Assembly: GCF_008065115.1 (NCBI RefSeq)
Contig: NZ_CP042913.1
Coordinates: 1,276,338-1,340,337, forward strand
DNA length: 64,000 nucleotides
Reading direction: 5' to 3'
Source of the DNA: Bythopirellula goksoeyrii
GTDB lineage: Bacteria; Planctomycetota; Planctomycetia; Pirellulales; Lacipirellulaceae
Part shown: positions 12,203 through 57,284 of the stretch, one piece after another
Numbering within the stretch: the first letter of the stretch is position 1
Layout: each line of letters starts with the position of its first letter
Notes under the pieces: generated by a model
The model's input: the letters and a program-made list of their open reading frames with translations, nothing else
The model's database searches: none
What the model was told of the DNA's origin: nothing
Program-made: the position numbers and the translations under genes

Positions 12203-12335
12203 CAGTGTATACTCACAGATAGAAACTCAAGTTAGAAACTGCATTTAGTTTATCACAATAAGGTCGGTCTGCGAGGAACTATTTATGTTCTTCCAAGGTT
12301 GTAGACCGCCCTCCATTTTCTTGCGAGAGAAAGCT

Positions 12336-13103: not shown

Positions 13104-13171
13104 ATCAGGATCCGCTTCGACTTACCGATATACAAGAAGAACCAGCACTCAAGTGGGTGCGGGCTGTCATG

Positions 13172-42067: not shown

Positions 42068-42110
42068 TGTAATGCTCCTCTTTGTAAAAATTTGCGACAA
42101 CTATTTGAGT

Positions 42111-43565
42111 TCATGAACAAGTTGTAGCGGTTTCACTCGTTCGACATCCCGAATTGTCGCTACCGTCAGATTTTTCAACAGAGAAACCGGCTGCATTCCA
42201 TGCGGTCATGCCTCCAAGTACATTGGCGACATCTTTGTAGCCCTCTCGTTTTAAAAACGAAGCGGCAATGGATGCGCGATAGCCCGATCCACAGATGACG
42301 ACGACTGGCTTTTCGTGCGGCACCAGCGAAAAGTTTTCCTGCAGTTTGCCGCCGTGGATGTGAATGGCTCCTTCAATGTGGCCCCCATTCCATTCCTTCT
42401 CTGTTCTGACATCGAGTACGGTCACTTCACCTAACTGCTTGTTGAGGCTATGGACCGAAAGCGTAGACGACTTTTCCAGCGGATACCCACTGACTTCCCA
42501 GGCATCCATGCCGCCCTCCAAGTAACCCTGGATGTCATCAAAGCCAACCCGCAACAGGTGAGTGGTGACTTCGTGCATTTGTTCGGGGCGATCGAGCACA
42601 ATCAATGTTGGACGGTCATAGGGAAGGACCCAACCCGCCCAAGTAGGCAGCGTCGGACCAAAAGGAATATTGATGGCGTCTGGTATATGTGCTGCAGCAA
42701 ACGATTCTTTAGAACGAACATCGACAATCAAGCAGTTTTCACACATTCGCTCGTGAACTTCCTTGGCGCTCCAGCGACGTTGTCCTGGAAGTTCTGGGCC
42801 AATCACTGGAGGACCTTCCTTGTTCACGCGTTTCATCCGCGCGAAGTACGGTGGCGAAAGCGGCATCTGGTCCATCAAATCGGCGATCCATTCTTTTTCT
42901 GGCTTTTCGACCAGAGCTGCATTGAAGCGCCGTTCGTACCCGAGCGTCGATGAACTACGCGAACCAATTGCCTTACCACAAAGTGATCCGGCACCATGGC
43001 CAGGAAAGATTTCAGTGAAACCTGGTAGAATCGGCAGTGTCTCAAAGACACTCCGATAAAGTTGGTGAGCGAGTTCTTTGCGAGCTTCTTCGCCTAGCAA
43101 GTCTGGGCGACCGACATCTCCAACAAATACAAAATCACCTGTAAAGATCAGCCAGGGGGTATCTGAGCTTCGCGATTCGTCAAAGAGTGCCCACGAGAGA
43201 TGCTCCAAAGTGTGGCCAGGTGTGTGGATAGCTTTGAGTCGAATACTGCCCAGGGAGATCTCCTCGCTGTTTTTGACAACGTGGTCTGCATAGGGAGGAG
43301 TCCACTCTTTGCCACCCAATCCGGATGCGTGAATTGTGACCCCATCTCCTAAGCGTGCTTTCAATTCACGCGATCCACTGACGAAGTCTGCATGCACGTG
43401 GGTTTCCAGCACATGGCGGATATGCAGTCCTTCACGACTGGCGATCTCAAGAAAGTCGTTGACATCACGAGTTGGGTCGATGACGGCAGCTTCCTTGGTT
43501 TTTTCATCCCCGACAATGTAAGAGTAAATGGCTAGTCCAGGCACGAATCGTTGATGGAAAAACAT
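42111..43565 (-). CDS. Metallo-beta-lactamase plus two rhodanese domains, CstB-like persulfide dioxygenase
   Basis: A 484-residue three-domain protein. Residues 1-230 are a persulfide-dioxygenase MBL fold: THVHADF (His56, His58, Asp60), HTPGHTLEH, TGDFVFVGDVGRPD and PGHGAGSLCG. A first rhodanese (about 265-365) has no active Cys, and the second has Cys425 in ICGSGYRA, as in S. aureus CstB. It oxidises persulfide sulfur to sulfite or thiosulfate, consistent with the TauE/SafE exporter next to it. The tail has extra Cys of unknown role. Confidence 0.9.
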   Translation of the reverse strand: MFFHQRFVPGLAIYSYIVGDEKTKEAAVIDPTRDVNDFLEIASREGLHIRHVLETHVHADFVSGSRELKARLGDGVTIHASGLGGKEWTPPYADHVVKNSEEISLGSIRLKAIHTPGHTLEHLSWALFDESRSSDTPWLIFTGDFVFVGDVGRPDLLGEEARKELAHQLYRSVFETLPILPGFTEIFPGHGAGSLCGKAIGSRSSSTLGYERRFNAALVEKPEKEWIADLMDQMPLSPPYFARMKRVNKEGPPVIGPELPGQRRWSAKEVHERMCENCLIVDVRSKESFAAAHIPDAINIPFGPTLPTWAGWVLPYDRPTLIVLDRPEQMHEVTTHLLRVGFDDIQGYLEGGMDAWEVSGYPLEKSSTLSVHSLNKQLGEVTVLDVRTEKEWNGGHIEGAIHIHGGKLQENFSLVPHEKPVVVICGSGYRASIAASFLKREGYKDVANVLGGMTAWNAAGFSVEKSDGSDNSGCRTSETATTCS

Positions 43566-43578
43566 AGCGTTCTCCTCG

Positions 43579-44391
43579 TTAAATAAAAGTCTTGCTGACG
43601 ATGAATACGGCGACTACCACGATGGCCGTCGCAAATACTTTTTGTAATATAGTGGCAGGAAGCCGTTTAGCGACTTCTCCGCCGAGAGTCATTCCAAGAA
43701 CACCTCCTAATGCGAACAATCCCGTGATTTCTAATGAAATGCCACGTCCCGCTGCAAAGTGGGAAGCGACACCCGAAATACTCACCATCACAATCACAAG
43801 AAGTGACGTGGCCACGGCTTTATGAATTGGCATGCCGCTAAAGAGAACCAGTGCAGGCACAATCACAAATCCTCCCCCCACGCCAAACATGCCGGACAAG
43901 ACTCCTGTTGACATGCCTACTAATAGCAGCACGAATGCGCACCGAGAAGTGAGCTTGAGGTTTCCATCGACGGTCCGTTCGCAGGCTGGACGGCGCCCTT
44001 GACTGTCGCAAACCGGTCCCAGCATTTCCGGCTGTGCCGACTTGCTCCACATTCTGGCAGCTACGATCAGCATGAGCAGAGAGAACATTGCAAGCAGAAT
44101 CGCTTCAGGAATTCTGCCAGCTATCCAGGTCCCAACGGGAGCACCTACCATACCTGCAATCGCAAACAGAAATCCTGTCCCTATTTCAACTTGTCCTGCC
44201 CGAATCCGAGGGATGACTCCTACGAGTGCGGTCGCCCCCACTGCTGCCAGCGAAACCCCAAAGGCTTCCCTGGGAGCCATTGACAGCCCGTAGACCAGGA
44301 GCGGCACAGCCAACAGGGAGCCACCGCCACCGGTCAGACCTAGGGCAAATCCGATACAAACTCCAAAAAGTATGCTCAAGGGGTACAACAT
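43579..44391 (-). CDS. TauE/SafE family permease (sulfite/sulfur exporter)
   Basis: A 270-residue, about eight-helix membrane protein of the sulfite exporter family, with GFALGLTGGGGSLLAVPLLVYG at the start and MFGVGGGFVIVPALVLFSG in the second repeat. Between an MBL persulfide dioxygenase and a rhodanese it most likely exports sulfite or related anions. The 3' end is 13 bases from the dioxygenase; its start overlaps the upstream gene by 16 bases. Confidence 0.92.
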   Translation of the reverse strand: MLYPLSILFGVCIGFALGLTGGGGSLLAVPLLVYGLSMAPREAFGVSLAAVGATALVGVIPRIRAGQVEIGTGFLFAIAGMVGAPVGTWIAGRIPEAILLAMFSLLMLIVAARMWSKSAQPEMLGPVCDSQGRRPACERTVDGNLKLTSRCAFVLLLVGMSTGVLSGMFGVGGGFVIVPALVLFSGMPIHKAVATSLLVIVMVSISGVASHFAAGRGISLEITGLFALGGVLGMTLGGEVAKRLPATILQKVFATAIVVVAVFIVSKTFI

Positions 44392-44936
44392 GATGGACCA
44401 TCACTCTTTAATTGATTCCAAGGCATTTTCGCTAGAATCATACCCATACCGCAGGTGTCGGTTAATCCAGCAAAAGTGAGTCCCGCACCTACAAATAGGG
44501 TGATGCCAATAAAGTACGGGTTTACGAAGTAACCGAGGATTGAACCTACGAGGATCAATAATCCTGCAGCGATTCGTACCTGTCGTTCGAGTGAAATGGA
44601 TTTCTTGCCACGAACGACCGGTAGCCCTAATTGATCCCAGGCAGCCGTACCCCCTTCCACATTGACGACATTGGTGTAGCCAGCCGCGACAAGCTGATCG
44701 CAGGCATTTGCCGCACGACTTCCACTGCGGCAGATCACATAGAGTGGTTTTTCCGCATTGCCGTTTCTGCCATTCACGACCATGTGTGGGTCGAGGGAAT
44801 CCAGAGGTACATTACGAGCCGGGGTAGCATGGATCTCACGAAACTCGACCGGCGTACGCACATCGATCAGATCGATAGGTGCTCCCTGTTGATATAAATC
44901 ATGAAGTTCTTCAGGTGATATGGTCTTGTAACTCAT
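44376..44936 (-). CDS. YgaP-like rhodanese with C-terminal membrane hairpin
   Basis: A 186-residue protein: an N-terminal rhodanese with active Cys69 in VICRSGSRA, then a DUF2892-type hairpin of two membrane helices (IAAGLLILVGSILGYF, IGITLFVGAGLTFAGL) and the TDTCGMGMILAKMPWN end. E. coli YgaP has the same build and moves sulfur at the membrane. It opens the persulfide operon and is preceded by an ArsR-type operator. Confidence 0.92.
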   Translation of the reverse strand: MSYKTISPEELHDLYQQGAPIDLIDVRTPVEFREIHATPARNVPLDSLDPHMVVNGRNGNAEKPLYVICRSGSRAANACDQLVAAGYTNVVNVEGGTAAWDQLGLPVVRGKKSISLERQVRIAAGLLILVGSILGYFVNPYFIGITLFVGAGLTFAGLTDTCGMGMILAKMPWNQLKSDGPSCCTP

Positions 44937-44962
44937 TCTTGGTAGCCTCCTTAATTAATCGT

Positions 44963-44986
44963 AATATCGTGAAGTAACGAGATATT
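44963..44986. promoter_or_regulatory. ArsR-type inverted repeat before the persulfide operon
   Basis: AATATCGTGAAGTAACGAGATATT has perfect 6-base arms AATATC/GATATT around 12 bases. It lies 27 bases upstream of the YgaP-like gene and shares ATATCG with the palindrome in front of arsR, so it is probably bound by the neighbouring repressor. Confidence 0.6.
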
Positions 44987-44990
44987 GAAT

Positions 44991-45025
44991 AAAAAAACTT
45001 CCTGCTATTTCTTGCCTTTCAGGAA
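44991..45025 (-). terminator. Intrinsic terminator overlapping the arsR stop codon
   Basis: On the minus strand, TTCCTG pairs with CAGGAA across a 15-base loop and is followed by GTTTTTTT. The stem includes the last codons and stop of arsR. It would separate arsR from the persulfide operon, which then needs its own promoter and operator. Confidence 0.6.
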
Positions 45026-45334
45026 TCTGCCTTCGATGCAGGCCATTAAGCTCTCCAGATGAGGCTCGGCGACCTGATAATAAACTCGTCGCCCCTCGCG
45101 TTCGCTGTGGAAGAAGCCACAGCGCTGCATGAGTCTCAGGTGCTCGGATGCAACATTGTCCGGCACCCCGCAGTCCTCGGCGAGTTCACCCACCGTATAG
45201 CGACCATGCAGTAGGAGTTGCACCATCCGAATCCTTACAGGATGAGCGAGGGTCTTAAGACATTCTGCTGCCCGGCCCAGCGCCTCCATGTTGGCAGGTT
45301 TGATTGTTTTCGGTTTTTTCAAGCTTGTTGCCAT
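45005..45334 (-). CDS. ArsR-family winged-helix repressor, likely thiol or metal sensor
   Basis: A 109-residue ArsR-type regulator; the recognition helix is in ELAEDCGVPDNVASEHLRLM, followed by the wing HSEREGRRVYYQV. Cysteines occur at 25, 55, 72 and 99. Cys55 and Cys99 are placed where some ArsR proteins (SqrR/BigR type) sense persulfides, but the exact pair differs, so the ligand is open. It has AGGAG upstream of ATG 45334. Flanked by two similar palindromes, it is likely autoregulated and controls the persulfide operon. Confidence 0.88.
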   Translation of the reverse strand: MATSLKKPKTIKPANMEALGRAAECLKTLAHPVRIRMVQLLLHGRYTVGELAEDCGVPDNVASEHLRLMQRCGFFHSEREGRRVYYQVAEPHLESLMACIEGRFLKGKK

Positions 45335-45357
45335 CTCGGAACTCCTCTTATGTTAAT

Positions 45358-45377
45358 ATATCGTAACATCTCGATAT
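45358..45377. promoter_or_regulatory. Palindrome ATATCG-N8-CGATAT upstream of arsR
   Basis: A perfect 6-base inverted repeat with an 8-base spacer lies 24 bases upstream of the arsR start. It resembles the site at 44963, so it is the probable autoregulatory operator. Confidence 0.65.
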
Positions 45378-45412
45378 GTCAATACACTGTTTCCCGTTAT
45401 ATTATGGCTTTT

Positions 45413-45780
45413 TCACCAGAATCTGTGGGTTAACACTGGCTCGGGCAGGCCTCCCAGGTAGTGGTGGAGGCTGATTTCAATGGCTTCGTAGGTTCGAAAG
45501 CCATAAGCTTTACTGGTAGTCAGTTTTCCTTTGTTGTTTAAACCCTCGACAATGCCCGCAGAAATCCTGCCTTTCGCGGCGAACCAGTTGAGGATCAGTT
45601 CCCGATGATTGCGTAAGGTTCGAGCGACTTTCTTCATTGGTTCCAGCTGGGAACGCAGCGTGCGCCGACCCGCCTGTGGCGTGTGCCCGCCTCTGGTCGA
45701 GGAACTTCCCTGCCCAGTTCGGACTCACGTACTCTCAAAAACGCTGAAAGTCTCCGAACGAAATTCCGCGTAAACTGTAT
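45413..45780 (-). pseudogene. Decayed ISL3-family transposase (C-terminal fragment)
   Basis: Read on the minus strand, pieces of an ISL3-type DDE transposase appear in two frames. The first (about 45690-45780) gives RGISFGDFQRF, then an in-frame TGA where Trp is expected, then EYVSPNWAGKFLDQ. The second (45413 to about 45700) gives RRTLRSQLEPMKKVARTLR..., KGRISAGIVEGLNNKGKL and KAYGFRTYE. A frameshift joins them. The N-terminal half is absent. This is an inactive remnant at the junction of two functional islands. Confidence 0.82.
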
Positions 45781-46185
45781 ACGAACTACTAGGAGCACAG
45801 GGTTTAGACTTCAGTGGTGGTGACCTGACTTATCCAATGCCACCTGTGGGGAAACTCGACTGTGGTGCACTCACGAGGCGACAGCATTAAGGGGGGACAC
45901 GGTCTTGCCTAATTGGCCAATTTTTCTTGAGCGGGTAAGCCGCTATGTTCCGTCGACCACCACTGTTTCAGCGGCCAAAGAAAGTGATTCTTCGACAAGT
46001 GCTTCACCTATGGCTGACGAGCCGACACCTCGCACGGATGAAAACTCAAAGCGGGCGCACCAAGACCTGCTCAAGAAAGCATGCCTCGGCGCCACCACAG
46101 CAGCAGCCGATGTCTAATTCGTGGGAGATTCCTTTATGCGGCCATGGCAAGTATTCGAAATTGATTGACCCCAGAAATTCCTCCT
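45781..46185. other. Intergenic region without a supported gene
   Basis: Two overlapping plus-strand frames exist at 45905-46117 and 45945-46190 but have low-complexity, Ser/Thr/Arg-rich translations, weak starts and no motif. The interval may be remaining flank of the decayed insertion element. No tRNA or structured element was seen. Confidence 0.45.
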
Positions 46186-46206
46186 ATTAGAATGGCCGGT
46201 TCTCAT
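46186..46206. promoter_or_regulatory. Near-palindrome ATTAGAA-N7-TTCTCAT, candidate operator
   Basis: The arms ATTAGAA and TTCTCAT pair in 6 of 7 positions. The site is 28 bases before the GTG start of the first gene of the metal-related cluster, a good operator position. A Fur-family (Zur) repressor is a reasonable candidate, but the planctomycete site sequence is not known to me. Confidence 0.35.
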
Positions 46207-46233
46207 TGAGTAGTCAGCCCAACAGAATCCATC

Positions 46234-46860
46234 GTGAAACATCCCCGCCTACATTTGTGCTGCGAGTTCCTGCTTAAATCTGCGGGGATAGTGACTGCTA
46301 TCGCTGTGGCTGTGGCGACGCTGGGGATTCCACTTCCGATGCCCGTCGCGAAACAAGTCAGTGAGTGGTTTCCTTGCGTGAATTGCAGTTGCGGCTGTGC
46401 CAATGCGGAAGTGTGTTGGCGTCAGTGTTGCTGTTTCTCAGATGCCGAAAAAATCGCGATGGCAACCGAGAATGGAGCGACCGTTCCGGAAGATGTTTTG
46501 GCACGAGCTGCTGAAGGATTAGAGCCTACTGAACGCAAGGATTTGGCCGAATTAAAGCCATGCTGTCGACAGCGTGTTCTCACGGCGCAGCTGGCGACGA
46601 CGTGCAATCGCAAATCGAGCTGCGCTGCAAAACCCGCAGCCGACGTGCCGCTGCTGCCCGGTGTGATTGCGATGCATGCCCAGAGATGCCAGGGAAATTC
46701 GTTGTCGCTTTCTCTAATTCCGCCCTCTATACCCACGGATGAAATTGGCACTAAGCTTCCGCTGTTGCCGCTGGAATCAGTCTTTCTCTCTGTATCCCTT
46801 CTCTATCAGCCGCCATCATTCGACGCGGTCCTTCCCCCACCAGAATTCGCGGTTCTCTAA
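46234..46860 (+). CDS. Cysteine-rich exported or membrane-anchored protein, planctomycete type
   Basis: A 208-residue protein from GTG 46234. It has one N-terminal hydrophobic segment (SAGIVTAIAVAVATLGIPL), a dense Cys cluster about residues 48-69 (CVNC, CGC, CWRQCCC), and further Cys at about 109-129 (CC, CNRKSSC). The rest is Leu/Pro-rich. The Cys spacing suggests zinc or another thiophilic metal. No named family is recognised. It precedes three secreted proteins by 117 bases and opens the cluster. Confidence 0.72.
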   Translation: MKHPRLHLCCEFLLKSAGIVTAIAVAVATLGIPLPMPVAKQVSEWFPCVNCSCGCANAEVCWRQCCCFSDAEKIAMATENGATVPEDVLARAAEGLEPTERKDLAELKPCCRQRVLTAQLATTCNRKSSCAAKPAADVPLLPGVIAMHAQRCQGNSLSLSLIPPSIPTDEIGTKLPLLPLESVFLSVSLLYQPPSFDAVLPPPEFAVL

Positions 46861-46977
46861 CTCCGCAAGGCTATTTTCTGGTTTTTGTTTTTTGTCTACG
46901 CAGCGATGCGCACATGGTGGTTTCCATCATGGCATGCATGGCTTTGGTACGACCTCATAGAGAAGGAATTGACTAAT

Positions 46978-47844
46978 ATGTTTTCTAAACAAATAGGCTG
47001 CGCGCTGAGCGCATTTGTGATTGCGATGAGCTCTGTCTCTGCGCACGGTCCCCAGCTACAAATAACCGCCGACGGTGGCAAAATTGTTCCCCGCAGCATT
47101 CTTAATGACCACTATGAACCACTCACGACGCCGAAATCGGTGTATGTGATGGAAGTGTTGGACTATCGTGGGGTTTGGTACACACGCCCCGAGACGGTAC
47201 TCAATCCACCGGAACATCCCACAGCACCGGGGCAGCCAAAGTATTACTCGGGTCCTGGCATTGCTTACGGCATTGATCAGACATTCGCCGTGGGCAGCAC
47301 GTTGGCAGTTAACTTTGTCACGGGTCTGCAATCATGGAATGGCGCTGACTTCGTGGATGCTGGTTCGACTGAGTTGCAATATTACCGAGGAGGATCGATT
47401 GGTGCCGCGGGCCAGCTGATCAGTCCGTCGGCGTCGATCCAGACCAGCGATGGCAGCCCTTCCCCGCTGTTGAGTTTTACTCCCATAGCCGATGGTTACA
47501 CGAGCGAGGCCCATGCGACGGCTCGCCTGCGTCTTCTGGGCGATGGCACGACCACCCCTGAGGGTGTCGGTCCGCAAGCCGGCACACTTGCTAGTGAACC
47601 CGCAGACGGTGTGTACTTGGCTAGTCTCGTACTCTCGAGCGATGAATCGGGTTTGGCCGATTCTGATCCGTTCACTTTTGTGATGCACAAAGGTGTGCCT
47701 TGGTCGGAGGTTTCTGCGGCCGTGAGTTCGCTGGGCGTTCCCAACTCGGCGGTCCAAGTGCTGGGGGTTCCCGAACCATCCTCGCTATTGATGGCTTCGC
47801 TTGGTTTGCTGAGCTTCGTCGTTCGGCGGAGAAGCTTAGCATGA
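46978..47844 (+). CDS. Secreted PEP-CTERM protein with N-terminal His after cleavage
   Basis: A 288-residue protein. A signal peptide ([17 protein letters not shown]) should be cut before [15 protein letters not shown], leaving His as first residue. The C-terminus is a PEP-CTERM sorting signal: VPEPSSLL, a hydrophobic helix and RRRS. The mature domain has no known catalytic motif; it resembles, from memory, PEP-CTERM proteins linked to Zur regulation (all3515-like), which needs a search. ATG 46978 has AAGGA upstream. Its stop overlaps the next start by four bases (ATGA). Confidence 0.83.
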
Positions 47845-48524
47845 AACGCCAACGAGCTTTTACCCTTGTAGAGCTGTTGGTCGTGATCGCGATCATCGGC
47901 GCTTTGGTGGCATTGCTCTTGCCGGCTGTGCAGAGTGCGCGGGCTTCCGCGCGCTCTGCAAGCTGCAAGAACAACATGCGGCAACTTGGCCTGGCCCTGC
48001 ACCAGTATTGCAATTCGCATCGGGGAGATTTCCCCGATTGGTGGCATACCGCCGGGGCGAACAAATCGTGGATTTATACCCTCGCGGATTATTTCGAAAA
48101 TGTCGACGAGTTGCGTATTTGTCCTGAGGACCCACTGTGGAAAGAGCGGCTTGATGCGCGGGCCAGTAGCTACATTATCAACGATTACTTGGCGGCTCCG
48201 ACAATTCCCGACGCGGTACGGAACCTGAACAAGATCGCGGCCACCAGCCGCACGATGTTCGCGTTTGAAATCTCCGACAAAGTAGCCGCGATTCCAGATG
48301 TAGACCACGCCCACGCTTCGCAGTGGTTTGCGCAGATCAATATTGATTGGGGTCGCGTCGAATCGAAGGTTCGAGGGGATATCCAATTGAATCGGCACTC
48401 CAACGCCTCTAATTATCTCTTCCTGGACGGACATGTGGAGACGATCAGCGAAGATCAAATTCTTAGGTGGATTGATGGAAACTTCAAATTCGCCAAACCT
48501 GATGAACAATGGATCAACCAATGA
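47841..48524 (+). CDS. DUF1559 prepilin-like protein
   Basis: A 227-residue protein with a type IV prepilin-like start ([25 protein letters not shown]) and the DUF1559 pattern: [15 protein letters not shown], a middle domain, and the closing H-X9-DG motif [18 protein letters not shown]. Planctomycetes carry many DUF1559 copies of unknown role in the envelope. Start and stop both overlap neighbours by four bases, tying it to the two secreted proteins. Confidence 0.93.
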
Positions 48525-49471
48525 CAAACTTCCGACTTTTGATTTCCGTGCTGGCAACACTGCTCATTGCAAGCCATCTGTGGGGGCATGGCAGTCCAAT
48601 CAATATCTCCGTGGAGGCGGGCCGTCTCGTCGCGAGCCATCCGTCCGATCAAATATTTGCCCCGCCGATCTTTGGACAGACGGACGATTTCGACGACTTT
48701 GCGGACGCCGATTTCTTCCCCACCCTCGGGAATGTTTTGCTATGGGAAGTTCCGGGGCTGGAAATTCATGACATGGGCGACAGTGCTAGTTTGGCACTTG
48801 AAGTTTTGGCTCGACCTGTGATTGGCTCAAGTCCTGCTGAACATCGAGTACTCTGGTACTGGAATCCTGACACGGAGGCGGTCGAAGAGTCGCCAGTCGA
48901 ATTTCACCTGCTTGCCACGGGGCCAAGCTCACTCTCGATAAACCCCGAAGACCAGCTCTCCCCTGCCCCATTCATGCTCGCCGATCCTGTTGCCGACCAA
49001 ACGGGGTTCCACAACCATACGTTGTTGCTTTATGCGTTGGATGATGACAACACCGCACCAGCTGGAGTCTATGGAGTCTTTGCCCGCTTTACGTCGAATA
49101 GCTATGCGCCGAGTGACCCACTGCTGATCTTGTTTAACTATTTCACGGAGAATGAACTCCTGCCAGAAAATAGTCTCGCGATCTATGAAGCTGCCACACT
49201 GCCGGGCGATTTCGATTTAGACGACGACGTCGATGGCCGAGATTTTCTCGAGTGGCAACGGCTGATTGGTTCAACCACCCGCAGCGTGGCGGATGCTTCG
49301 CTTAACGGGGTTGTTGATGCGGCCGATCTGCAGATCTGGCAGCAGAACTACGGTAACACCTTCGAAGAAAGTTTTTTCTTGCCGGTAACTTATGTGCCTG
49401 AACCGGAGTGTCTAATGACTCTGATTCAAGCCTTGGCAATTTGTGGAAGTCTGTTTAGGCAATCGAAATGA
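48521..49471 (+). CDS. Secreted protein with dockerin-like repeats and degenerate PEP-CTERM
   Basis: A 316-residue protein from ATG 48521 (overlapping the previous stop). Signal peptide [17 protein letters not shown]; the mature start [15 protein letters not shown] resembles that of the protein at 46978. A type I dockerin-like calcium pair follows at about 225-275 ([17 protein letters not shown] and [12 protein letters not shown]). The end reads [21 protein letters not shown], a PEP-CTERM-like anchor. The paired secreted proteins with shared N-terminus suggest a common role, perhaps metal binding at the surface. Confidence 0.85.
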
Positions 49472-50123
49472 GTGGAGCAGGTTCCTAGTGAACAACTGAG
49501 GAACGTGTTCGAGTCAGGATATTGGTAGAGACAAACAAAAAAAGGGCCGACGAAGTGCGGGAGACTTCGTCGGCCCTCGGAGGGGGGAGACTTTTAGGTG
49601 GGACTTTTCACATGGTGCTCGGCGGACCGTCTGGCTCTATCACCCGCGGGTCTGAGCCGCCTGCCGACCACATTCTCTTCTACCGTCGGATTGTTAGTGC
49701 AAAGGGGATGCCAAAAGTCGGTCACGCTCCAAACACGAAGTGGCTTCCACGCGATACTCCCTGAAACCGCCGTAATAATGCCGATCTGTGGCATGCGATA
49801 GCATGGGCTCCGATGTCTTGTAAAATTGTAAAAACTGCAAGACCCCATTGTAGGACTTGCTAATAGCGGTGAACTCTCGCCCCTCGGGTTTCGTACTAGC
49901 ACTGCGTTGGGCTGCCATTTCAGGCCAATGGCGTTATCTGCCGGGAATTTTGGCCTGCCTGTGGCAAGCGCCGTGCCGCTCTATCCCGCTGCAACGAGTT
50001 GGAAAACAGGCTGTACGCCTGCACCACGGAACCCGCCTGTCGGCTATTGAATCCAGCCGTTACGATAGTTTGCTTGCAACCTCGCTCGGATACCATCATT
50101 TTTAAAATCCTCGCTCTCCCGCC
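49472..50123. other. Intergenic region with minus-strand terminator and possible small RNA
   Basis: No coding gene is supported in these 652 bases; overlapping frames on both strands lack motifs. The left part contains a strong terminator for leftward transcription (49537-49576). A second hairpin, GTCTTG (49815-49820) with CAAGAC (49838-49843), is present. A TACAAT -10-like box lies at 49847-49852 on the minus strand. Together they suggest an RNA of about 300 bases transcribed leftward. Confidence 0.4.
49537..49576 (-). terminator. Strong intrinsic terminator for leftward transcription
   Basis: A perfect 13-base stem GGGCCGACGAAGT/ACTTCGTCGGCCC (49544-49556 and 49564-49576) with a 7-base loop. 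On the minus strand it is followed by TTTTTTTGTTTGT. On the plus strand the 3' flank is TCGGAGGGG, without T-run. No minus-strand gene is upstream of it. Confidence 0.75.
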
Positions 50124-50795
50124 ATGCTTTCACTTGAACTCGTTCGTAAGTCCTATCGTGAACCCGATGGGGAAGAGCTATCGATCTTGGATATTCCCAC
50201 GTTCTCAGTGGCCAAGGGAGAGCAAGTCGTACTCCGCGGCCGCAGTGGCTGTGGTAAGACGACGCTCTTGAACTGCATTGCCGGGCTGACGACGGTCGAT
50301 TCGGGGCGAATCAGTATCAATGGCACAGACATCGTCCGCCTTCAAGAAGTGGGCCGCGACCGGTTTCGTGCGAAGTACATTGGCTTCGTATTTCAGACAT
50401 TTAATCTGTTGCCTGCCTTCACAGCACTCGAAAACGTGCAATTAGGAATGTCGTTCACCGGTCAAAGATCAGATGCTGCCCGAGCCGAGAAACTATTGCA
50501 AGATGTGGGGCTGGGACACCGATTAACCCACAAACCGGCGGCATTATCGGTGGGCGAGCAGCAACGGGTCGCCGTAGCCAGGGCACTTGCGAATCAACCG
50601 GCTCTGTTGCTTGCCGACGAACCGACGGCCAACGTCGACCCCGGGCACCAGCAGCAGATCATCGACCTTTTGCGAGAGGCATGCAACCGAGAGCAGGTGG
50701 CAATGCTCCTAGTGACTCATAGTCCCGAAGTGGCCGATCAGTTCGAGCGGGTCGAGGTCTTGGAAGAAATCAATCGAGCGGTGAGTGCAGCATGA
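50124..50795 (+). CDS. ABC transporter ATP-binding protein, putative metal (zinc) system
   Basis: A 223-residue ATPase of the LolD/MacB class: Walker A GRSGCGKTT (39-47), Q-loop FVFQTFNLLP, signature [15 protein letters not shown] and Walker B LLLADEPTANVD. It powers the permease encoded next, with which it overlaps by four bases. A chromosome neighbour set of ATPase, FtsX-type permease and DUF3299 proteins resembles the zinc-regulated (Zrg) systems described in Vibrio; substrate here is inferred. Confidence 0.9.
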   Translation: MLSLELVRKSYREPDGEELSILDIPTFSVAKGEQVVLRGRSGCGKTTLLNCIAGLTTVDSGRISINGTDIVRLQEVGRDRFRAKYIGFVFQTFNLLPAFTALENVQLGMSFTGQRSDAARAEKLLQDVGLGHRLTHKPAALSVGEQQRVAVARALANQPALLLADEPTANVDPGHQQQIIDLLREACNREQVAMLLVTHSPEVADQFERVEVLEEINRAVSAA

Positions 50796-52135
50796 GTTTC
50801 TGGAAAATTGCCTGGCGAAATATGTGTCAACGAGCGCTCGCTTCCTCGCTGACGGGGTTATCGATGGCGTTGGGCGTGGCGCTGATGATTCTGGTGATCG
50901 TGATTCATGATGTCACCATCGAGCAGTTCGAGAACGATGCCCAAGGGTACCATCTGATCGTCGGTGGCAGTAAAGGTGGTGACCTGCAACTGGTGATGAC
51001 CACCGTATTTCATCTTGGCAGGCCGCTTTATCCAATACCCTACAGCTACTACAAGAAATTTACTGAGGGAGAATTTGCCCAGTACACCAACGTTGCCGTG
51101 CCCTATTGTCTGGGAGACAGTTACCAGGGAGGTGACCAACAATTCCGAGTCGTTGCTACGACGCCTGATCTGTTCGACAGACTTCCCTACGGAGCCAACC
51201 CCGACGGTAGCGACAAGCTATACGAATTTCGAGAGGGGCGCAATTTCCAAACCGACCATTTTTTCGAGGCAGTTATCGGGTCAACCGTCGCCCGAAAGAC
51301 GGGACTCAAAGTCGGCGACAAATTCCAGCCGACTCATGGCATGAGCGCGGCGGGGGACAAGCATACGGAGTTCACAGTCGTGGGTATCCTGGCCCATACG
51401 GGAACCGCCAACGATCGGGCCATATTTGCCAATATCGAAGGATTTTATCTGCTCGAAGGACACGCCTTCACACCCGAGGAAGGTGAGCAGGCACATGTCT
51501 CGGTAGACAAGTTGGACAAAGAACATATCGACCCCGACGATCCCAACTATGGAATGAAACCGCTACCCGAGTCACAGCGCGAAGTGACTTCCATTCTGGT
51601 CAACTGCAAAGATGAATTGGCCCCGATGTCTCTAGATTATGAAATCAACAAAAAAGATAAAGGGCGTGTTGCCCAGGCTGTTGCCCCGGGTGGAGTTGTT
51701 ACACGATTGTTGGAAGGAATCGTCGGTCCGGTGCGAATTATTTTGATGGTGCTCACCGTGTTAATCATCGTGGTAGCCGGTATCAGCATCCTGGTAAGCA
51801 TTTACAACTCAATGAGCGAGCGGAGTCACGACATAGCTGTCATGCGTGCCCTGGGGGCCAGCCGCACCGCCGTGATGGGGATCATCCTTGCTGAGTCGAT
51901 TCTGCTGTCATTGCTCGGAGGACTCGCGGGTGTACTCTTGGGGCATGCCGTGCTGGGAATTATTGGCCCCTACGTCGAAGAACACACGGGTGTCGCGTTG
52001 CGATTTTGGGATTTCAACTGGAAAGAGAGTCTGTTGATTCCTGGATTGGTGATCTTCGCCTCGCTGGTAGGCTTCCTGCCCGCGTTGACAGCCTATCGCA
52101 CGGACGTTGGCCGGACTCTAGGCGGGGCACGTTAG
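50792..52135 (+). CDS. FtsX-type ABC permease, putative metal (zinc) system
   Basis: A 447-residue permease with one N-terminal helix (SMALGVALMILVIVIHDV), a large periplasmic domain and three C-terminal helices around IILMVLTVLIIVVAGISILVS and IILAESILLSLLGGLAGVLL. The periplasmic part has the blocks GGSKGGDLQLVMTTVFHLG, CLGDSYQGG, THGMSAAGDKHTEF and VGILAHTGTANDRAI, which I associate with permeases near DUF3299 genes. It is coupled to the ATPase by a four-base overlap. Confidence 0.9.
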   Translation: MSFWKIAWRNMCQRALASSLTGLSMALGVALMILVIVIHDVTIEQFENDAQGYHLIVGGSKGGDLQLVMTTVFHLGRPLYPIPYSYYKKFTEGEFAQYTNVAVPYCLGDSYQGGDQQFRVVATTPDLFDRLPYGANPDGSDKLYEFREGRNFQTDHFFEAVIGSTVARKTGLKVGDKFQPTHGMSAAGDKHTEFTVVGILAHTGTANDRAIFANIEGFYLLEGHAFTPEEGEQAHVSVDKLDKEHIDPDDPNYGMKPLPESQREVTSILVNCKDELAPMSLDYEINKKDKGRVAQAVAPGGVVTRLLEGIVGPVRIILMVLTVLIIVVAGISILVSIYNSMSERSHDIAVMRALGASRTAVMGIILAESILLSLLGGLAGVLLGHAVLGIIGPYVEEHTGVALRFWDFNWKESLLIPGLVIFASLVGFLPALTAYRTDVGRTLGGAR

Positions 52136-52192
52136 GGGAAACCTATGTGTGTTCTCCGGGCCTTCGATTCGATAGAATAGGGAATTATGTAG

Positions 52193-52256
52193 GGTGGGCA
52201 CCGCCCACCAAATCGAAAGCGTTGCCGAGATATTATTCTGGTGAGCGGTGCCCACC
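52193..52256. repeat. REP-like inverted repeat element
   Basis: GGTGGGCACCGCCCACC contains a 7-base hairpin, and GGTGGGCACCG at 52193-52203 is the exact reverse complement of CGGTGCCCACC at 52246-52256. This forms a small repeat between the permease and the next gene; such GGTGGGCACCGCCC elements are often dispersed in genomes. Confidence 0.6.
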
Positions 52257-52270
52257 AAACTTGGATCATC

Positions 52271-53875
52271 ATGAAACAATACCACGCCATAAACTTCTTG
52301 TTCGCTGTTGCCGCTCTCTGTTGGATAACGGGAACCGCAAACGCCTGTCCCTTTTGCGATGTTGTATCGCAAACGCTCAGCGAAGAACTCGCTGCGGCCG
52401 ATGCCACTATCATCGCCAGTTTGGTGAAAGCAGCACCAACGACCGACTTGGACGATCCCAGCGCAGAGAGTGCTGGTGATCCCTACACGGGTGCCATTTT
52501 TCGAGTCGAAAAAGTTCTCAAAGGGGAAAACCGTGTCAAGGTGGGGGATGAGATCGAGGTGGTCTACTTCGGTGGCGATCCGGCGGATAAGCAATTTCTC
52601 ATTAATTCGCTCGGTGGTGACAAACTTGATTGGACAACTCCGCTCCCCTTGTCGCCGCGAGCAGTGGAATATGTGCAGAAGCTTTCCTCTCTGCCGAAGA
52701 GTGGCAAAGATCGTCTGAAGTTTTTTATGGGTCACCTGGAAGACCCCGACCCACTGCTGGCCCAGGATGGCTACGACGAATTCGCGAGAGCTCCTTATCA
52801 AGATCTGATTGATTTGAAGGACGATTTGGATCGTGAGCAATTGGCCATTTGGATTAAGGACCCGCAAGTTGGTCCCACACATCGCCGGTTGTATCTGACG
52901 ATGCTGGGCGTCTGTGGCACCGAGGAAGATGTCGCGATGCTTGAATCGCTCTTGAAATACAACTACGAATCCATGCGACCTGGAATTGCGGCGTTGATCG
53001 CCACGATGGGAATAAGCGGTTCCTCGCTGGGCGTGCCGCTAGTCAATGAATTGGCACATGCCGACGTGCGAGCCAAGCAGCAGTGTCTCGATGCCTTAAT
53101 TGCCGCCTATCTAAAACTGAAAGGGCCCGATGGGTTGGAATTAGTCGAAGAACGCTTTCTAGACAATCCCCAAGCCGAATACACGCAGCTCTACTCAGCG
53201 ATCATGGCGCTCAGATTCCACGGCGAAGAATCGAACGAAATACCCCGCGAGCGGCTTGTGCAATCGTTGCGGCTCCTGCTAGATAATTCCGAGATAGCCG
53301 ATCAAGTGATTCCGGACCTCACCCGCTGGGAAGATTGGGAAATCATGGACCGGTTGGTGGATATGTTCAAGCAGTCAGACGAGGATGGCTGGATTCGGCA
53401 ACCCGTCCTGGCCTATCTCCTTACGGCTGCCGAGCAATCGGGCGACGTAGGCTCAAAGGCCACCAAGGCAGTCGAAGAATTAGAATCTCTCGATCCCACC
53501 GGTGTAAAGCGGGCCCGTAGTTACATTTCTTTCGGTCTGATGGCACGCGGAGGTTCTAGTACGACCGAATCTGAGCAAGGTAGCGAAGACAACGACGAGC
53601 AAGATGGAGATGAAGTAGCTGAGGCTGAACAAGCTGAATCTGTTGAACTTGAGAAGAAGGAAATGGAACTTGATCAGTCGCTGGACCCGCAGACGGGCAT
53701 GCCAATAGATGAATTAGCTGAAACGGGAGACGACATGGCCAAGGGCCCCCTCTCAGCCGATGCAGAACCTTCTGCACCTAGTCGCACTATGATTATCGCC
53801 GTGCCGTTGGCTATCGGGGCCTTGCTCATCGGCCTGTTTGCAATCATGCTGCGCGGCGGCCACTCCACTAGTTGA
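52271..53875 (+). CDS. Exported HEAT-like repeat protein with C-terminal membrane anchor
   Basis: A 534-residue protein from ATG 52271. A signal peptide (INFLFAVAALCWITGTANA) precedes CPFCDVVSQTLSEEL. A beta-rich module (about 30-120) is followed by helical repeats with features of HEAT-type solenoids (about 150-430), an acidic Glu/Gln-rich linker and one C-terminal helix (MIIAVPLAIGALLIGLFAIML). The CPFC motif lacks the His of a heme site and could be redox-active or metal-binding. It lies between the ABC permease and two DUF3299 genes. Function unknown. Confidence 0.75.
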   Translation: MKQYHAINFLFAVAALCWITGTANACPFCDVVSQTLSEELAAADATIIASLVKAAPTTDLDDPSAESAGDPYTGAIFRVEKVLKGENRVKVGDEIEVVYFGGDPADKQFLINSLGGDKLDWTTPLPLSPRAVEYVQKLSSLPKSGKDRLKFFMGHLEDPDPLLAQDGYDEFARAPYQDLIDLKDDLDREQLAIWIKDPQVGPTHRRLYLTMLGVCGTEEDVAMLESLLKYNYESMRPGIAALIATMGISGSSLGVPLVNELAHADVRAKQQCLDALIAAYLKLKGPDGLELVEERFLDNPQAEYTQLYSAIMALRFHGEESNEIPRERLVQSLRLLLDNSEIADQVIPDLTRWEDWEIMDRLVDMFKQSDEDGWIRQPVLAYLLTAAEQSGDVGSKATKAVEELESLDPTGVKRARSYISFGLMARGGSSTTESEQGSEDNDEQDGDEVAEAEQAESVELEKKEMELDQSLDPQTGMPIDELAETGDDMAKGPLSADAEPSAPSRTMIIAVPLAIGALLIGLFAIMLRGGHSTS

Positions 53876-53928
53876 GATAATTCTCACTCCACCAATCAGC
53901 CAATCCGTTGGCGAGACAAAGTTAGAAC

Positions 53929-54651
53929 ATGTCAACTTCCGAATCAATGACAGATTTCTCTGCCGCGGACAGCGAGAGTGGCGAGTTCGAATATCGTGCC
54001 TTGAGTACTAGCGCGATTGCTGCCGCCATTTTTGGTGTCTTGTCACCTTTGACTATCTTTGCGGGCCGTGATAGTTTGGAATCCGCCTTGATGCTATCCC
54101 CGATTCCTCTGGTGGGTCTCGTGGTGGGCCTTCGTGCTCTTGCCTCCATTCGTGAGATGCCAGACCAACTGAGTGGGCGGAATTTGGCATGGGTCGGCGT
54201 GGTACTTTCCGCACTCGGACTGGTCGGTGGCCTCAGCTATGCCGGTTTTGTCCACGCGACGGAAGTTCCACCAGACGCAACGCGTTCTTCCTTTCAAGAG
54301 TTTCGTCCCGACGACCAGCAGATTGCGGCCGGGAATTTTATCCCCAAGGAGGTACAAGCCTTAGATGGTAAGCGAGTGTTTATCAAGGGTTTCATGCGTG
54401 CCGATTCTACTCCGGTCCGTCACAATGTCCGCCGCTTTCTCTTGGTTCGCGACAACAATCAGTGCTGCTTCGGTGACATGTCGAACCTCAAGTACTATGA
54501 CCAGGTGCTGGTCAAATTTGCGGATAATGTGACGGCCGACTATTCGACAGGACTATTTCGCATTGCCGGCACTCTGCATATTAACCCGGAGAATGCAGTG
54601 CGCGGTGCTAATTACCCAGTCTACACCTTGGAGGCTGACTACGTGCGATGA
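53929..54651 (+). CDS. DUF4190-like membrane segment fused to DUF3299
   Basis: A 240-residue protein. The N-terminal half has about three hydrophobic helices of the DUF4190 kind (STSAIAAAIFGVLSPLTIFAG, MLSPIPLVGLVVGLRALASI, LAWVGVVLSALGLVGGL). The C-terminal half is DUF3299: GKRVFIKGFMRADS, RRFLLVRDNNQCCFGDM and IAGTLHINPEN. DUF3299 occurs beside zinc-type ABC transporters. Its stop overlaps the next start by four bases. Confidence 0.85.
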   Translation: MSTSESMTDFSAADSESGEFEYRALSTSAIAAAIFGVLSPLTIFAGRDSLESALMLSPIPLVGLVVGLRALASIREMPDQLSGRNLAWVGVVLSALGLVGGLSYAGFVHATEVPPDATRSSFQEFRPDDQQIAAGNFIPKEVQALDGKRVFIKGFMRADSTPVRHNVRRFLLVRDNNQCCFGDMSNLKYYDQVLVKFADNVTADYSTGLFRIAGTLHINPENAVRGANYPVYTLEADYVR

Positions 54652-55139
54652 ATGGAATTCAGCACTTAATTGGGACTCTAATACTCTCGATGTTATGCGC
54701 CAGTATGGGCTGTGAGCGATCGAGCGTCGTGGCAAGTACCTCGGAGAAGGCGTCAAACGCATCGGGCGAACCTCGCGAGACCTCCTTCGATGATTTGAAG
54801 TTCGAGATGGAGAAAACCGACGCGTTCAAGCGGTCGATGCTCACTCCCAAGATCGAAGACCTTTTCGGCAGCAAAATCCATATTCGCGGCTACATGTTTC
54901 CAACGCTCAAACGCCAGGGTCTCACGGGGTTTGTGCTCGTGCGCGATAATCTTGAGTGCTGTTTTGGCCCGGGGGCCGCGCTGTACGACTGTGTGTGGGT
55001 CAAGATGCGCAAAGGCGAGACTGCCGAGTTTTCGATCCGTCCAATTGCCGTCGAAGGCGTGCTGCGGTTCGAAGAGTTTGCCGATATGGATGGTACCACC
55101 CGGGCTATCTATCTGTTGGAACAAGGGTCCGTTGATTGA
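54648..55139 (+). CDS. DUF3299 lipoprotein
   Basis: A 163-residue lipoprotein; signal ILSMLCASMGC with a lipobox-like Cys. The DUF3299 core is SKIHIRGYMFPT, GFVLVRDNLECCFGPG and PIAVEGVLRFEEF. It shares the Cys-Cys-Phe-Gly pattern with the preceding protein and is coupled to it by an ATGA overlap. It is the last gene of the plus-strand cluster and ends 3 bases before the convergent coiled-coil gene. Confidence 0.84.
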   Translation: MNGIQHLIGTLILSMLCASMGCERSSVVASTSEKASNASGEPRETSFDDLKFEMEKTDAFKRSMLTPKIEDLFGSKIHIRGYMFPTLKRQGLTGFVLVRDNLECCFGPGAALYDCVWVKMRKGETAEFSIRPIAVEGVLRFEEFADMDGTTRAIYLLEQGSVD

Positions 55140-55142
55140 CCC

Positions 55143-57284
55143 CTATTGCTCCTTCGACTCCTCGTCTCCCAAGCCCAACGCTGAGAGCCAGCGGCGACGC
55201 GGTTTGCCATCGTTCCCAAGGGTGACGTCAGCAGCAGCCTCTTGAGCCGCTGCAAGGAGTTCCTTCAACTCTGCTTCCTTGCGGGCCAATGTGGCACGTT
55301 GGGTCGACATCTCCAGTTCGGCCCCCCGAACTTTGTCTCGCCATTCGGCTTGTAATTCTTCCAGGCGAGCCCGTTCGGCTTGGATCACTTCGTCTTGATC
55401 GCAGATTTCTGCGCTTATGTCTTTTGGTTCCGCATCAACCTGATTGTCAAGTTGCTGCTGCAATTCGGCAATCTCCTGGTCTTTCTTGGCCACAATTTGG
55501 TCAGTAATCTCGATCGTGCCTTGGATGCTCAACTTCTCTTCGACACGCTCAGGCGTTGTATCCTCGTCGTCTCCATCGGACTCCAAGGCAGCCAACATCC
55601 GTGCTTTCTGTGACTGCCAGTCCATGGCACCACTGTCGACAGCTGGGGCATTGCCATGAGAAGCGTTTGCCAGCTTCTCTTCGAGTTTGGCCTTTTCTTG
55701 CTTCACTTCGCGCAGATCGTCCACAGCCATCTCGAACCGCCGCTGCAAGTCAGCCAACTGTTGCAGGGAATCTTCGTCACCTACCTGTGCAGGCAACTGT
55801 TCCAATTCCGCTACTCTAGTGGCCAATGCATCGCGTTCCACTCTCAGACTAACCAACTCGGGAGATTCTTGATCGCTGGCCTCGGGACGACGCGCTAATT
55901 CCTCTTGGAGCGTGGCTATCTCACGCTTGAGCTTCTGCGTATCTGCTTGTGCAAGTTCGAACTTGCGTTGTGCTTGCTCTAACTCTTCTGCCAATTCGTG
56001 CTGATCTGGCAAGGTGCTGAGCTGTTCCTGAGCTTCCTGCAATTGACCCGCCGATTGTTCGCTCTTAGCGACAGCTTCTTCTAGCTGGCGACTTAGTTCC
56101 TCACGCGCGCATTCCAGCTCATACTTTTCATCGACAAGTTGCGAAAGTTGCTCCTTGACCGAGCGAAGCTCTTCCTCCCGCTCGGCAGCATCGCCAGTAG
56201 ATTCAGCGTGCTTTGCCGCCAGTTCTTCATTGACCGATGCGAGCTTTGTGGAAAGCTCTTCGTGTTCGGCGGAGAGTTTCTCAAGTTCCGCTTGCGATTG
56301 TTCGACCTGTTGTTTGATCTCCGCGAGCTCGGCGGCCTGACTTTCTCGTTCAGATTCCCTCTCGTCATTCAGTTGAGAAATGTTTGCCTGTACGTTCGAG
56401 TGTTCTTCTGCCAACGACTCATGTTCCTGCCTCAAGTTGGCCAATTCTTGTTGAGCTTCCAGCAATTGCTCGTGTTCCTCTGACGCGCCTTCTTGAAGCC
56501 TAGCTTCTAAACCCGAGAGGTCTTCTTGTAGGCGAGTAATCGTCGCATTGGCTTCGTCCAATTCTGCCTGCAATCCCGAATCAGACGCAACTGAGTCAAA
56601 TATCTGTTGTTCTAATTTGGAACGGACCGCAGCAAGTTCCTCACAACTAGCATCGCGTTCGGCAGTCAGGTTTGCTACCTCATTGCTGAGATCCTCACAA
56701 CGCTTTTCAGCATCTGACAATTCCTCACGAAGCCGGGTAGCCTGCTCATCTTGGCTCGCAGCGGATTCCTGCCAAGATTGCAGTTCGGCGATTTTCTTGG
56801 CAGCCTCCTCAGCTTCGGCTTTGAGTTGCTCCGTCGAAGCCTCCGCTTCGGCTGTTCGGCTTTCCGATTCGCGTAGCTTCTCTCGGAAGCTGGAACATTC
56901 GCCGCATTCTTCTGCTCGCAATTCTGAAAGCGAGGCCCGCTCCTCGCGGAGTTCGTCTTGCAGTCGGGAGCGATCATTCCTGAGTTCATCCACCTGAGTC
57001 TGCAATTGGGTAACGAGATCCTCCCTTTCGGCGAGGAGGTCTTGCAGTTGGGTGAGTTTCTCGCCCGTGTATTGGGCTGCCTTCTGGGCTTCGGTCGACT
57101 TTTCGTCCGCCATCTCCTCGGCGATCTGAAAGATTCGTCCGATGATGTCGGATTGAACATCCGTAGCAGTGCGGTGATCCGCTTCCAGTCTTGGACCAAT
57201 CTTCTCGCGCAGAGCACGCAACGCATCGGCAGTCTTCACTGACCGGTCTTCTGCAGAATTGGTGCCAAGTTGTGGTGAGTCCAT
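55143..57284 (-). CDS. Long coiled-coil protein, function unknown
   Basis: A 713-residue protein, almost all of it heptad-like Glu/Gln/Ser/Leu-rich coiled coil (about residues 60-600, e.g. ELRNDRSRLQDELREERASL), with a short N-terminal region and a basic end (KPRRRWLSALGLGDEE). No signal peptide, enzyme motif or membrane helix is seen. It could act in chromosome or cytoskeleton organisation; nothing more is supported. No terminator separates it from the convergent DUF3299 gene. Confidence 0.8.
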   Translation of the reverse strand: MDSPQLGTNSAEDRSVKTADALRALREKIGPRLEADHRTATDVQSDIIGRIFQIAEEMADEKSTEAQKAAQYTGEKLTQLQDLLAEREDLVTQLQTQVDELRNDRSRLQDELREERASLSELRAEECGECSSFREKLRESESRTAEAEASTEQLKAEAEEAAKKIAELQSWQESAASQDEQATRLREELSDAEKRCEDLSNEVANLTAERDASCEELAAVRSKLEQQIFDSVASDSGLQAELDEANATITRLQEDLSGLEARLQEGASEEHEQLLEAQQELANLRQEHESLAEEHSNVQANISQLNDERESERESQAAELAEIKQQVEQSQAELEKLSAEHEELSTKLASVNEELAAKHAESTGDAAEREEELRSVKEQLSQLVDEKYELECAREELSRQLEEAVAKSEQSAGQLQEAQEQLSTLPDQHELAEELEQAQRKFELAQADTQKLKREIATLQEELARRPEASDQESPELVSLRVERDALATRVAELEQLPAQVGDEDSLQQLADLQRRFEMAVDDLREVKQEKAKLEEKLANASHGNAPAVDSGAMDWQSQKARMLAALESDGDDEDTTPERVEEKLSIQGTIEITDQIVAKKDQEIAELQQQLDNQVDAEPKDISAEICDQDEVIQAERARLEELQAEWRDKVRGAELEMSTQRATLARKEAELKELLAAAQEAAADVTLGNDGKPRRRWLSALGLGDEESKEQ

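Follow-up and report, generated by a model that had tools for sequence, protein, structure and literature searches.

Organization of the locus

Do nine neighboring genes of Bythopirellula goksoeyrii form a single locus for zinc acquisition, or are they two sets of genes that lie side by side? The genes occupy positions 46234-55139 of a 64,000-nucleotide stretch of contig NZ_CP042913.1 (hereafter the window), and an earlier note, made from the sequence alone, had proposed that secreted surface proteins encoded there capture metal and pass it to an ATP-binding cassette (ABC) system. All nine genes were confirmed on the + strand, within 9 kb as that note described, and they fall into two blocks. 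Unit B (46234-49471) codes, in order, for a Cys-rich protein, a PEP-CTERM protein, a DUF1559 protein, and a dockerin-like/PEP-CTERM protein. Unit A (50124-55139) codes for an ABC ATPase, a MacB-type permease, a TIMP-like/HEAT anchored protein that carries a CPxC motif (CPxC/HEAT protein), a DUF3299 protein with a transmembrane (TM) part (DUF3299a), and a DUF3299 protein with a lipoprotein-like start (DUF3299b). We judge it rather probable that these are two adjacent modules from the zinc/metal repertoire of Pirellulales, a Zrg-like unit A and a surface cassette of what we call type I (unit B). Their adjacency in the window is most likely incidental. Sequence comparison supports a link to zinc at the level of families, both that of unit A and that of the surface proteins, and a single integrated zinc locus in the window goes beyond what the data support.

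Genes overlap by 4 nt within both blocks (PEP-CTERM/DUF1559 and DUF1559/dockerin-like in unit B; ATPase/permease and DUF3299a/DUF3299b in unit A), and 652 bases containing a hairpin separate the end of unit B (49471) from the start of unit A (50124). The two units are probably transcribed separately. For both blocks the same order of genes is seen again in other genomes, so the block structure goes beyond chance.

Unit A is widespread and Zrg-like

Permease homologues (E<=1e-20) were detected in 114 of 117 Pirellulales genomes, the window's own included. Out of these 114, the neighborhoods of 60 other unit A copies were read; in 52 the sequence reaches 5 kb or more upstream of the permease, and in 8 it stops short of that. 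All five genes are present in 47 of the 60. On the same strand as the permease, the ATPase was found in 59, the CPxC/HEAT protein in 50, DUF3299a in 51, and DUF3299b in 48, the last three just downstream. Across a sample of the phylum, the CPxC/HEAT profile matched 18 of 246 genomes: 3 from this order, 12 from one other family of the class, and 3 (weak) from one family elsewhere. A second CPxC-family gene ends unit A in many neighborhoods from several families (L036, L045, L047, L054, L059-L062, L064, L069, L072, and L073, among others), and in L066 a further gene of this family, with a product starting CSIC, lies between the permease and the HEAT protein.

The earlier note had likened the ATPase, permease, and DUF3299 genes to the zinc-regulated Zrg genes of Vibrio, and this likeness is supported by permease phylogeny and by gene order on plasmids; boxes of the Zur type are present in 15 of 96 unit A upstreams. 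A 40-row tree placed the window permease in one group (support 99/99) with 16 planctomycete permeases, one from Deinococcus, and four from proteobacteria (P. aeruginosa, Sulfitobacter, Phaeobacter, and an unannotated one from Aeromonas). E. coli MacB, LolC, and LolE and the other FtsX proteins of the B. goksoeyrii genome (15 rows, 13 proteins) fall outside this group; several long branches make placements within the tree unsure. A search of 72,556 plasmid-collection records with the permease matched 117 records, and five regions were opened. Three of them (P. aeruginosa, Sulfitobacter, and Phaeobacter) have the order DUF2796-ATPase-permease-DUF3299, headed in Phaeobacter by a Fur-family gene. 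The Deinococcus MP1 region has no annotated DUF3299, and the stretch of an Aeromonas plasmid with a permease relative is unannotated.

The window thus shares with ZrgABCDE of Vibrio and PA4063-PA4066 of P. aeruginosa an ATPase and a MacB-type permease of the Zrg clade and a downstream DUF3299 gene (ZrgE), and some unit A relatives share the Zur-type box as well. Unlike these systems, the window operon has an extra CPxC/TIMP-like-HEAT protein, two DUF3299 genes (as in Sulfitobacter), one of them with a DUF4190-like TM part, and no Zur box. DUF2796 (ZrgA) is not in the operon, and unit A is therefore filed as Zrg-like, not as a member of ZrgABCDE. With LolCDE and MacAB the window shares the general ABC fold, and its ATPase resembles LolD (TIGR02211, 193.8 bits, under the cut-off of 307.75). 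Its permease, in contrast, lies outside both clades, its partners are DUF3299 proteins, and no MacA was found by Pfam among the nine window products.

A Zur-type box precedes some unit A operons

Inverted repeats of the form TGCAAWNNNWTTGCA precede zepA of the B. goksoeyrii genome (two copies) and other zur, zepA, COG0523, or DUF1559 genes. Sixteen such promoters were surveyed, with approximate gene starts. A TGCA-N7-TGCA site occurs in nine, two (L130 zur and L210 zur) hold only the related form TTGCA-N-TGCAA, and five have no site (zepA of L210, L212, and L214; L216; L171). Ten sites were picked by hand from these promoters, none of them from unit A, and combined into a matrix.

Among 60 unit A upstreams (including the boxless one of the window), eight reached a rounded score of >=14, compared with a mean of 0.13 and a maximum of 1 in dinucleotide shuffles. 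Other open reading frame upstreams gave 4 of 435 at this score, which by sequence are the same sites seen from the divergent gene. The frozen matrix then found eight sites in 36 new unit A upstreams (shuffles: mean 0.08, maximum 1); 40 had been fetched, and L268, L272, L283, and L284 were dropped for want of an ATPase hit. With unrounded scores the box is present in 15 of the 96 upstreams, compared with a mean of 0.06 and a maximum of 1 for 100 column-permuted palindromic matrices. Boxed upstreams come from five (f1, f2, f12, f15, and f16, with f15 contributing most) of the twenty families in the order sample, and a borderline one comes from f6. We predict that the box would be bound by Zur.

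An early palindrome scan upstream of the ATPase, made before the matrix was learned and with 11 upstreams printed, showed nothing in common. Nor did a plain pattern search of the window give a significant excess (6 matches with <=3 mismatches, 3.95 expected).

Unit B is one of a family of surface cassettes

A strong homologue of the PEP-CTERM protein is encoded in 6 of the 117 genomes, the window's own included, and the number rises to 10 when weak ones are counted. The complete unit B quartet is present in the same order in four of the five others; the fifth is cut off by a contig end behind the DUF1559 gene, and its contig is too short to judge adjacency to unit A. None of the four complete quartets adjoins unit A. 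Conversely, the 60 other unit A neighborhoods, 52 of which extend 5 kb or more upstream, contain no Cys-rich protein and no PEP-CTERM protein, and of the fourth protein at most the dockerin part. The nine-gene order, on whose conservation across Pirellulales the earlier note had staked its proposal, is therefore absent from all 60.

Short DUF1559 relatives are more common, with 65 hits listed at E<=1e-35 in 41 of the 117 genomes, the window's own included. We read 55 of their neighborhoods, covering 57 of the 65 hits (8 hits were not fetched), and define here a short DUF1559/three-His PEP-CTERM cassette: a short DUF1559 gene beside genes for exported proteins with an N-terminal His and an HxH motif, plus a gene for a small Cys-rich protein. 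Unit B of the window is such a cassette. By tblastn hits, on which the type labels rest, 23 of the 55 neighborhoods are type I, with a CWxxCCC protein (the window's among them), and 32 have no CWxxCCC protein. Among the neighbors of the 23 type I loci no regulator or transporter turns up repeatedly, and a shared regulator for them was rejected; no common motif was seen by eye in their upstreams (no motif finder was run).

The zinc link of the surface proteins comes from cassettes with ZepA, the all3515 protein (PMC10957091). ZepA was found in 12 of the 117 genomes, and of these 12 loci 8 have a short DUF1559, 10 a three-His PEP-CTERM protein, and 4 a zur gene. Among the loci with genes listed, a COG0523 GTPase is additionally encoded in L210 and in L218 (that of L218 read by eye); the L210 protein scores 596.5 bits against ZigA, for which the cut-off is 600. 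As a control, the 60 unit A neighborhoods (1.05 Mb) lack both ZepA and the Cys-rich gene and gave a single weak zur hit (40 bits). The B. goksoeyrii genome has its own Zur-ZepA cassette, 1.7 Mb from the window (L130, G000:C1:3018000-3034000, 2674-7803, - strand), with fur (at 3.025 Mb), all3515/zepA (NF040463, 263.9 bits), a small Cys/His gene, a short DUF1559 gene, and two PEP-CTERM genes. The only exact TGCAAATNATTTGCA site of the genome lies in this cassette. For the small Cys/His protein in Zur-type cassettes, the label DUF2946 was considered and dropped because Pfam gave nothing at E<=0.1 for five such proteins.

The window's first PEP-CTERM protein had been compared to all3515-like proteins, and this did not hold. 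It has a signal peptide (by eye) and a PEP-CTERM tail, as ZepA does, but no NF040463 match at E<=1 (cut-off 75 bits), and the motif H-x(2-9)-H-[FY]-H is found in 0 of 6 rows of its family, compared with 10 of 11 ZepA rows. No fur or zinc gene and no Zur box lie beside it; both FUR genes of the genome are elsewhere, and the neighboring regulator is of the ArsR type. Homology between ZepA and the three-His family was also rejected, as only the C-terminal end aligns (33 columns around the PEP-CTERM tail for the dockerin-protein family and 55 columns for the PEP-CTERM protein). The broader suggestion that the surface proteins are tied to zinc stands in part, in that their family occurs in genuine Zur/ZepA cassettes, whereas unit B itself has no zur, zepA, or box. 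We read unit B as a sister cassette to those of the Zur/ZepA type.

In sequence, the best hint at a metal site is a set of three conserved His residues, common to both kinds of cassette. In the 42-row family alignment of the dockerin-like protein (A4), with a mean column identity of only 19%, His is found in 40 of 42 rows at H23, 36 at H164, and 40 at H166, and the PEP residues of its closing VPEP and hydrophobic stretch are invariant. The PEP-CTERM protein belongs to the same superfamily (hhalign 99.7%, E 1.7e-25); A22, H23, G24, P25, and H179 are invariant in its six-row alignment. Nine Cys are invariant in the 18-row alignment (A7) of the Cys-rich protein (C48, C53, C55, C61, C65-67, C110, and C152). 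Short matches to this family outside the class were found in a distant family (f62), with E about 1e-7 to 1e-11.

An apparent operon in another family joins surface genes to an ABC pair

The combination proposed for the window probably exists as a Zur-controlled operon in another genome, G018, which belongs to another family; it is a single case. An apparent operon there (L190, G018:C10:2000-17751, 7151-13817) codes for a small Cys/His protein, a short DUF1559 protein, a PEP-CTERM protein, a dockerin PEP-CTERM protein, a ZIP transporter (PF02535, 78.6 bits), an ATPase, and a permease, the last two duplicating the ABC pair. There is a 4-nt overlap between the dockerin and ZIP genes. At 7151-7171, just upstream of the first gene (possible starts 7176 and 7227), lies TATTGCAATGCGATTGCAATA, a perfect 9-3-9 palindrome. 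It was left out of the matrix and scores 20.6. The surface cassette is of the other type, with a small His/Cys protein in place of the CWxxCCC protein, and another unit A, complete but boxless (score 1.9), is present in the genome. Just downstream of the operon, a His-rich protein with HGPGCGH repeats is encoded on the opposite strand, and a protein 77% identical to it is encoded near a DUF1559 cassette with a Zur-type site (L164, 3671-4156).

Alternative readings

Several results weigh against assigning the two window units to a zinc repertoire, and all of the metal claims come from sequence. No Zur-type box was found in 81 of the 96 unit A upstreams, including the window's own (score 6.5, random-window P value 0.055) and those of two relatives from the same genus (L074, 5.5; L075, -0.2), and within the window's family only 1 of 16 is boxed (L078). 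No DUF2796 was detected at E<=1 among the nine window products. One or more of the five unit A genes are lacking in 13 of the 60 neighborhoods, and all three accessory genes in seven (L039, L040, L046, L070, L082, L092, and L093). The P. aeruginosa operon is under Zur control, yet it has been assigned to the export of pyochelin-cobalt and not to zinc import (PMC11481552). For type I cassettes, neither zur nor zepA was found near any of the 23 loci, and none has a Zur-type box within 900 bp (one has within 1500). Other-type loci have a box in 8 of the 28 scored (of 29), which differs from type I with Fisher P values of 0.006 (900 bp) and 0.03 (1500 bp); L130, L183, and L200 were excluded from this test because their sites are in the matrix. 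The upstream of the window's Cys-rich gene is also boxless (score 0.2).

One integrated locus, in which zinc caught at the surface by unit B is handed on to unit A, seems to us quite unlikely, even though both units lie on one strand and the G018 operon unites a related surface cassette, a ZIP transporter, and an ABC pair behind a perfect Zur-type palindrome. That cassette belongs to the other type, unit B is missing from the 60 other unit A neighborhoods (52 of them covering 5 kb or more upstream), the four complete quartets do not lie next to unit A, and in the window the units are separated by the 652 bases and the hairpin, with no box in either promoter. The transfer of metal from surface proteins to the ABC system, as the earlier note had it, is thus not borne out for this window. 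A housekeeping envelope machine, releasing or exporting lipoproteins in the manner of LolCDE or MacAB and only occasionally regulated by zinc, would also fit the near-universal presence of unit A, the many boxless upstreams, and the argument that the P. aeruginosa homologue is a MacB-type exporter (PMC11481552). We nevertheless consider this account of unit A improbable, given that the permease is apart from MacB and LolC/E in the tree, the link to DUF3299 is seen outside the phylum too, and Zur-type boxes are enriched.

A stronger competitor concerns unit B, which may handle another metal (copper or iron) or be mainly a set for adhesion or biofilm formation. The Cys-rich CWxxCCC protein, the dockerin-like and PEP-CTERM parts, and the type I loci without zur, zepA, or a nearby box all agree with this, as do weak fold matches of the dockerin-like protein. 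Its predicted structure is beta-rich (pLDDT 86.6) with no fold match at E<=0.001; among the weak matches are FimH adhesins (best E 0.0052) and, further down the list, CopC (E 0.093). Set against these points, the DUF1559 subfamily and the three-His secreted family are common to the Zur/ZepA cassettes, and we lean against this alternative while regarding it as a serious possibility.

A model for the two units

For the preferred reading of two separate modules, the following mechanism can be suggested. In Vibrio parahaemolyticus, Zur represses the zrg operon, and a shortage of zinc induces it strongly (PMC9817125). Proteins of the MacB type are described as relaying conformational change through the membrane, or mechanotransmission (PMC11481552), which is why we read unit A as a putative machine for moving zinc, or a ligand of zinc, among partners in the periplasm. 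The ATPase would drive the permease, and the large periplasmic part of the permease may work with the membrane-tethered CPxC/TIMP-like-HEAT, TM-DUF3299, and lipo-DUF3299 proteins, loading or releasing zinc, or its ligand, among them. A separate importer would carry the ion inward, for which two ABC-3 permease matches in the genome are candidates. In unit B, the two secreted, PEP-CTERM-sorted proteins would each offer a metal site formed by the N-terminal His and HxH (or a single His), and would be made together with a dedicated DUF1559 pseudopilin and the Cys-rich membrane protein. Unit B has no Zur box, and its metal may therefore be zinc or another.

A bolder proposal is a surface-to-cytoplasm zinc route in Pirellulales under Zur, in which three-His PEP-CTERM proteins deliver to a Zrg-type mechanotransmission machine with TIMP-like and DUF3299 partners, the DUF1559 pseudopilin lays out the surface proteins, the Cys-rich protein acts as a relay, and the window's cassette is a Zur-free paralogue beside it. 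We regard this as speculative and rather unlikely. If true, it would assign a function to the greatly expanded planctomycete DUF1559 family. The analysis as a whole links DUF1559, DUF3299, the unnamed three-His PEP-CTERM family, and the TIMP-like/HEAT protein to zinc. The gene families of both units come under a predicted zinc switch in some relatives, so that several proteins without a function gain a testable job, and the predicted Zur-type box can be tested directly. To our knowledge, zinc physiology has been little studied in planctomycetes. In the open-access papers searched, DUF1559 was not found together with zinc or with PEP-CTERM, nothing was found on planctomycetes and "Zur regulon" beyond the ZepA paper (PMC10957091), and DUF3299 appears in four papers.

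Features of the window

Table 1. Features of the two units and their surroundings. Pfam scores are given with family cut-offs where noted; the signal peptide and mature N-terminus of the PEP-CTERM protein were read by eye.
Feature	Position	Strand	Basis
Sigma-70-like promoter TTGACC-17-TAGAAT, shortly 5' of the Cys-rich gene	46165-46193	+	Consensus scan, 10/12 matches
Cys-rich membrane/exported protein (type I), CxxCxCGC...CWxxCCC, GTG start	46234-46860	+	No Pfam family except one at chance level
PEP-CTERM protein, mature N-terminus HGPQ	46978-47844	+	PF07589 27.3 bits (cut-off 20.7)
Short DUF1559 protein, pseudopilin-like N-methylation signal	47841-48524	+	PF07596 54.1 bits; PF07963 (N_methyl) 28.7 bits
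Exported protein with N-terminal His, HxH (H164, H166), dockerin-like stretch, PEP-CTERM tail	48521-49471	+	Family alignment; Dockerin_1 19.3 bits (cut-off 22.9)
Strong hairpin between the units, perfect 14-bp inverted repeat, 7-nt loop, T-run on - strand side	49543-49577		Inverted repeat
ABC ATPase, LolD/MacB type	50124-50795	+	PF00005 (ABC_tran) 121.7 bits
MacB/FtsX-type permease, Zrg (ZrgB/PA4065) clade	50792-52135	+	PF02687 (FtsX) 58.3 bits; PF12704 (MacB_PCD) 42.1 bits; tree 99/99
Anchored protein: CPxC at mature N-terminus, N-TIMP/agrin-NtA-like domain (lead), HEAT-like solenoid, C-terminal TM	52271-53875	+	Alignment, model, fold search
DUF3299a: TM region resembling DUF4190 (below cut-off), joined to a divergent, CCFG-bearing DUF3299 domain	53929-54651	+	DUF3299 12.7 bits (cut-off 22)
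DUF3299b: DUF3299 protein, probable lipoprotein, ECCFGPGA	54648-55139	+	PF11736 26.0 bits (cut-off 22)

Individual products largely agree with earlier descriptions (Table 1). The HEAT-like anchored protein is consistent with its AlphaFold model (pLDDT 84.2), for which the top fold matches are armadillo/HEAT solenoids (best E 0.0056, none at 0.001), and C25, P26, and C28 are invariant in its 38-row alignment. Its N-terminal domain resembles agrin-NtA/N-TIMP (1jc7 and 1pxu; probability 0.99, TM-score 0.48 by target), a likeness that is a lead only because E is 0.15. TIMPs bind the zinc of metalloproteases through an N-terminal Cys. Of the two proteins previously called DUF3299, DUF3299b is above the cut-off and DUF3299a below it, though the two families are homologous by profile comparison (99.8%, E 9e-30), and G21-C22 is conserved in the 29-row DUF3299b alignment (A1). 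Profile searches of the PDB with both families returned 4HSP_A as the sole match (E 0.0033 for DUF3299b and 0.00021 for DUF3299a), which we take to be the structure entry of PA4066 and which has CIHVP where the window proteins have CCFG. According to PMC9820375, PA4066 is a protein with a structure from structural genomics. For the product named a dockerin protein, the Dockerin_1 match is below the cut-off; the protein also has the HxH motif and a PEP-CTERM tail.

The sigma-70-like promoter upstream of the Cys-rich gene lies in a region where such matches occur at chance level (8 found, 6.6 expected). Rfam gave no match in the window at the gathering threshold, and no tandem repeats were found at 45000-55500. 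Divergent from unit B, on the - strand at 41366-45334, are genes for a peroxiredoxin, an MBL-rhodanese protein (persulfide dioxygenase-like), a TauE-like protein, and a rhodanese, all four named by eye, and for an ArsR-family regulator (NF033788). Homologues of the ArsR and rhodanese genes (69% and 54% identity) lie 2-3 kb from the quartet in one other genome (L125).

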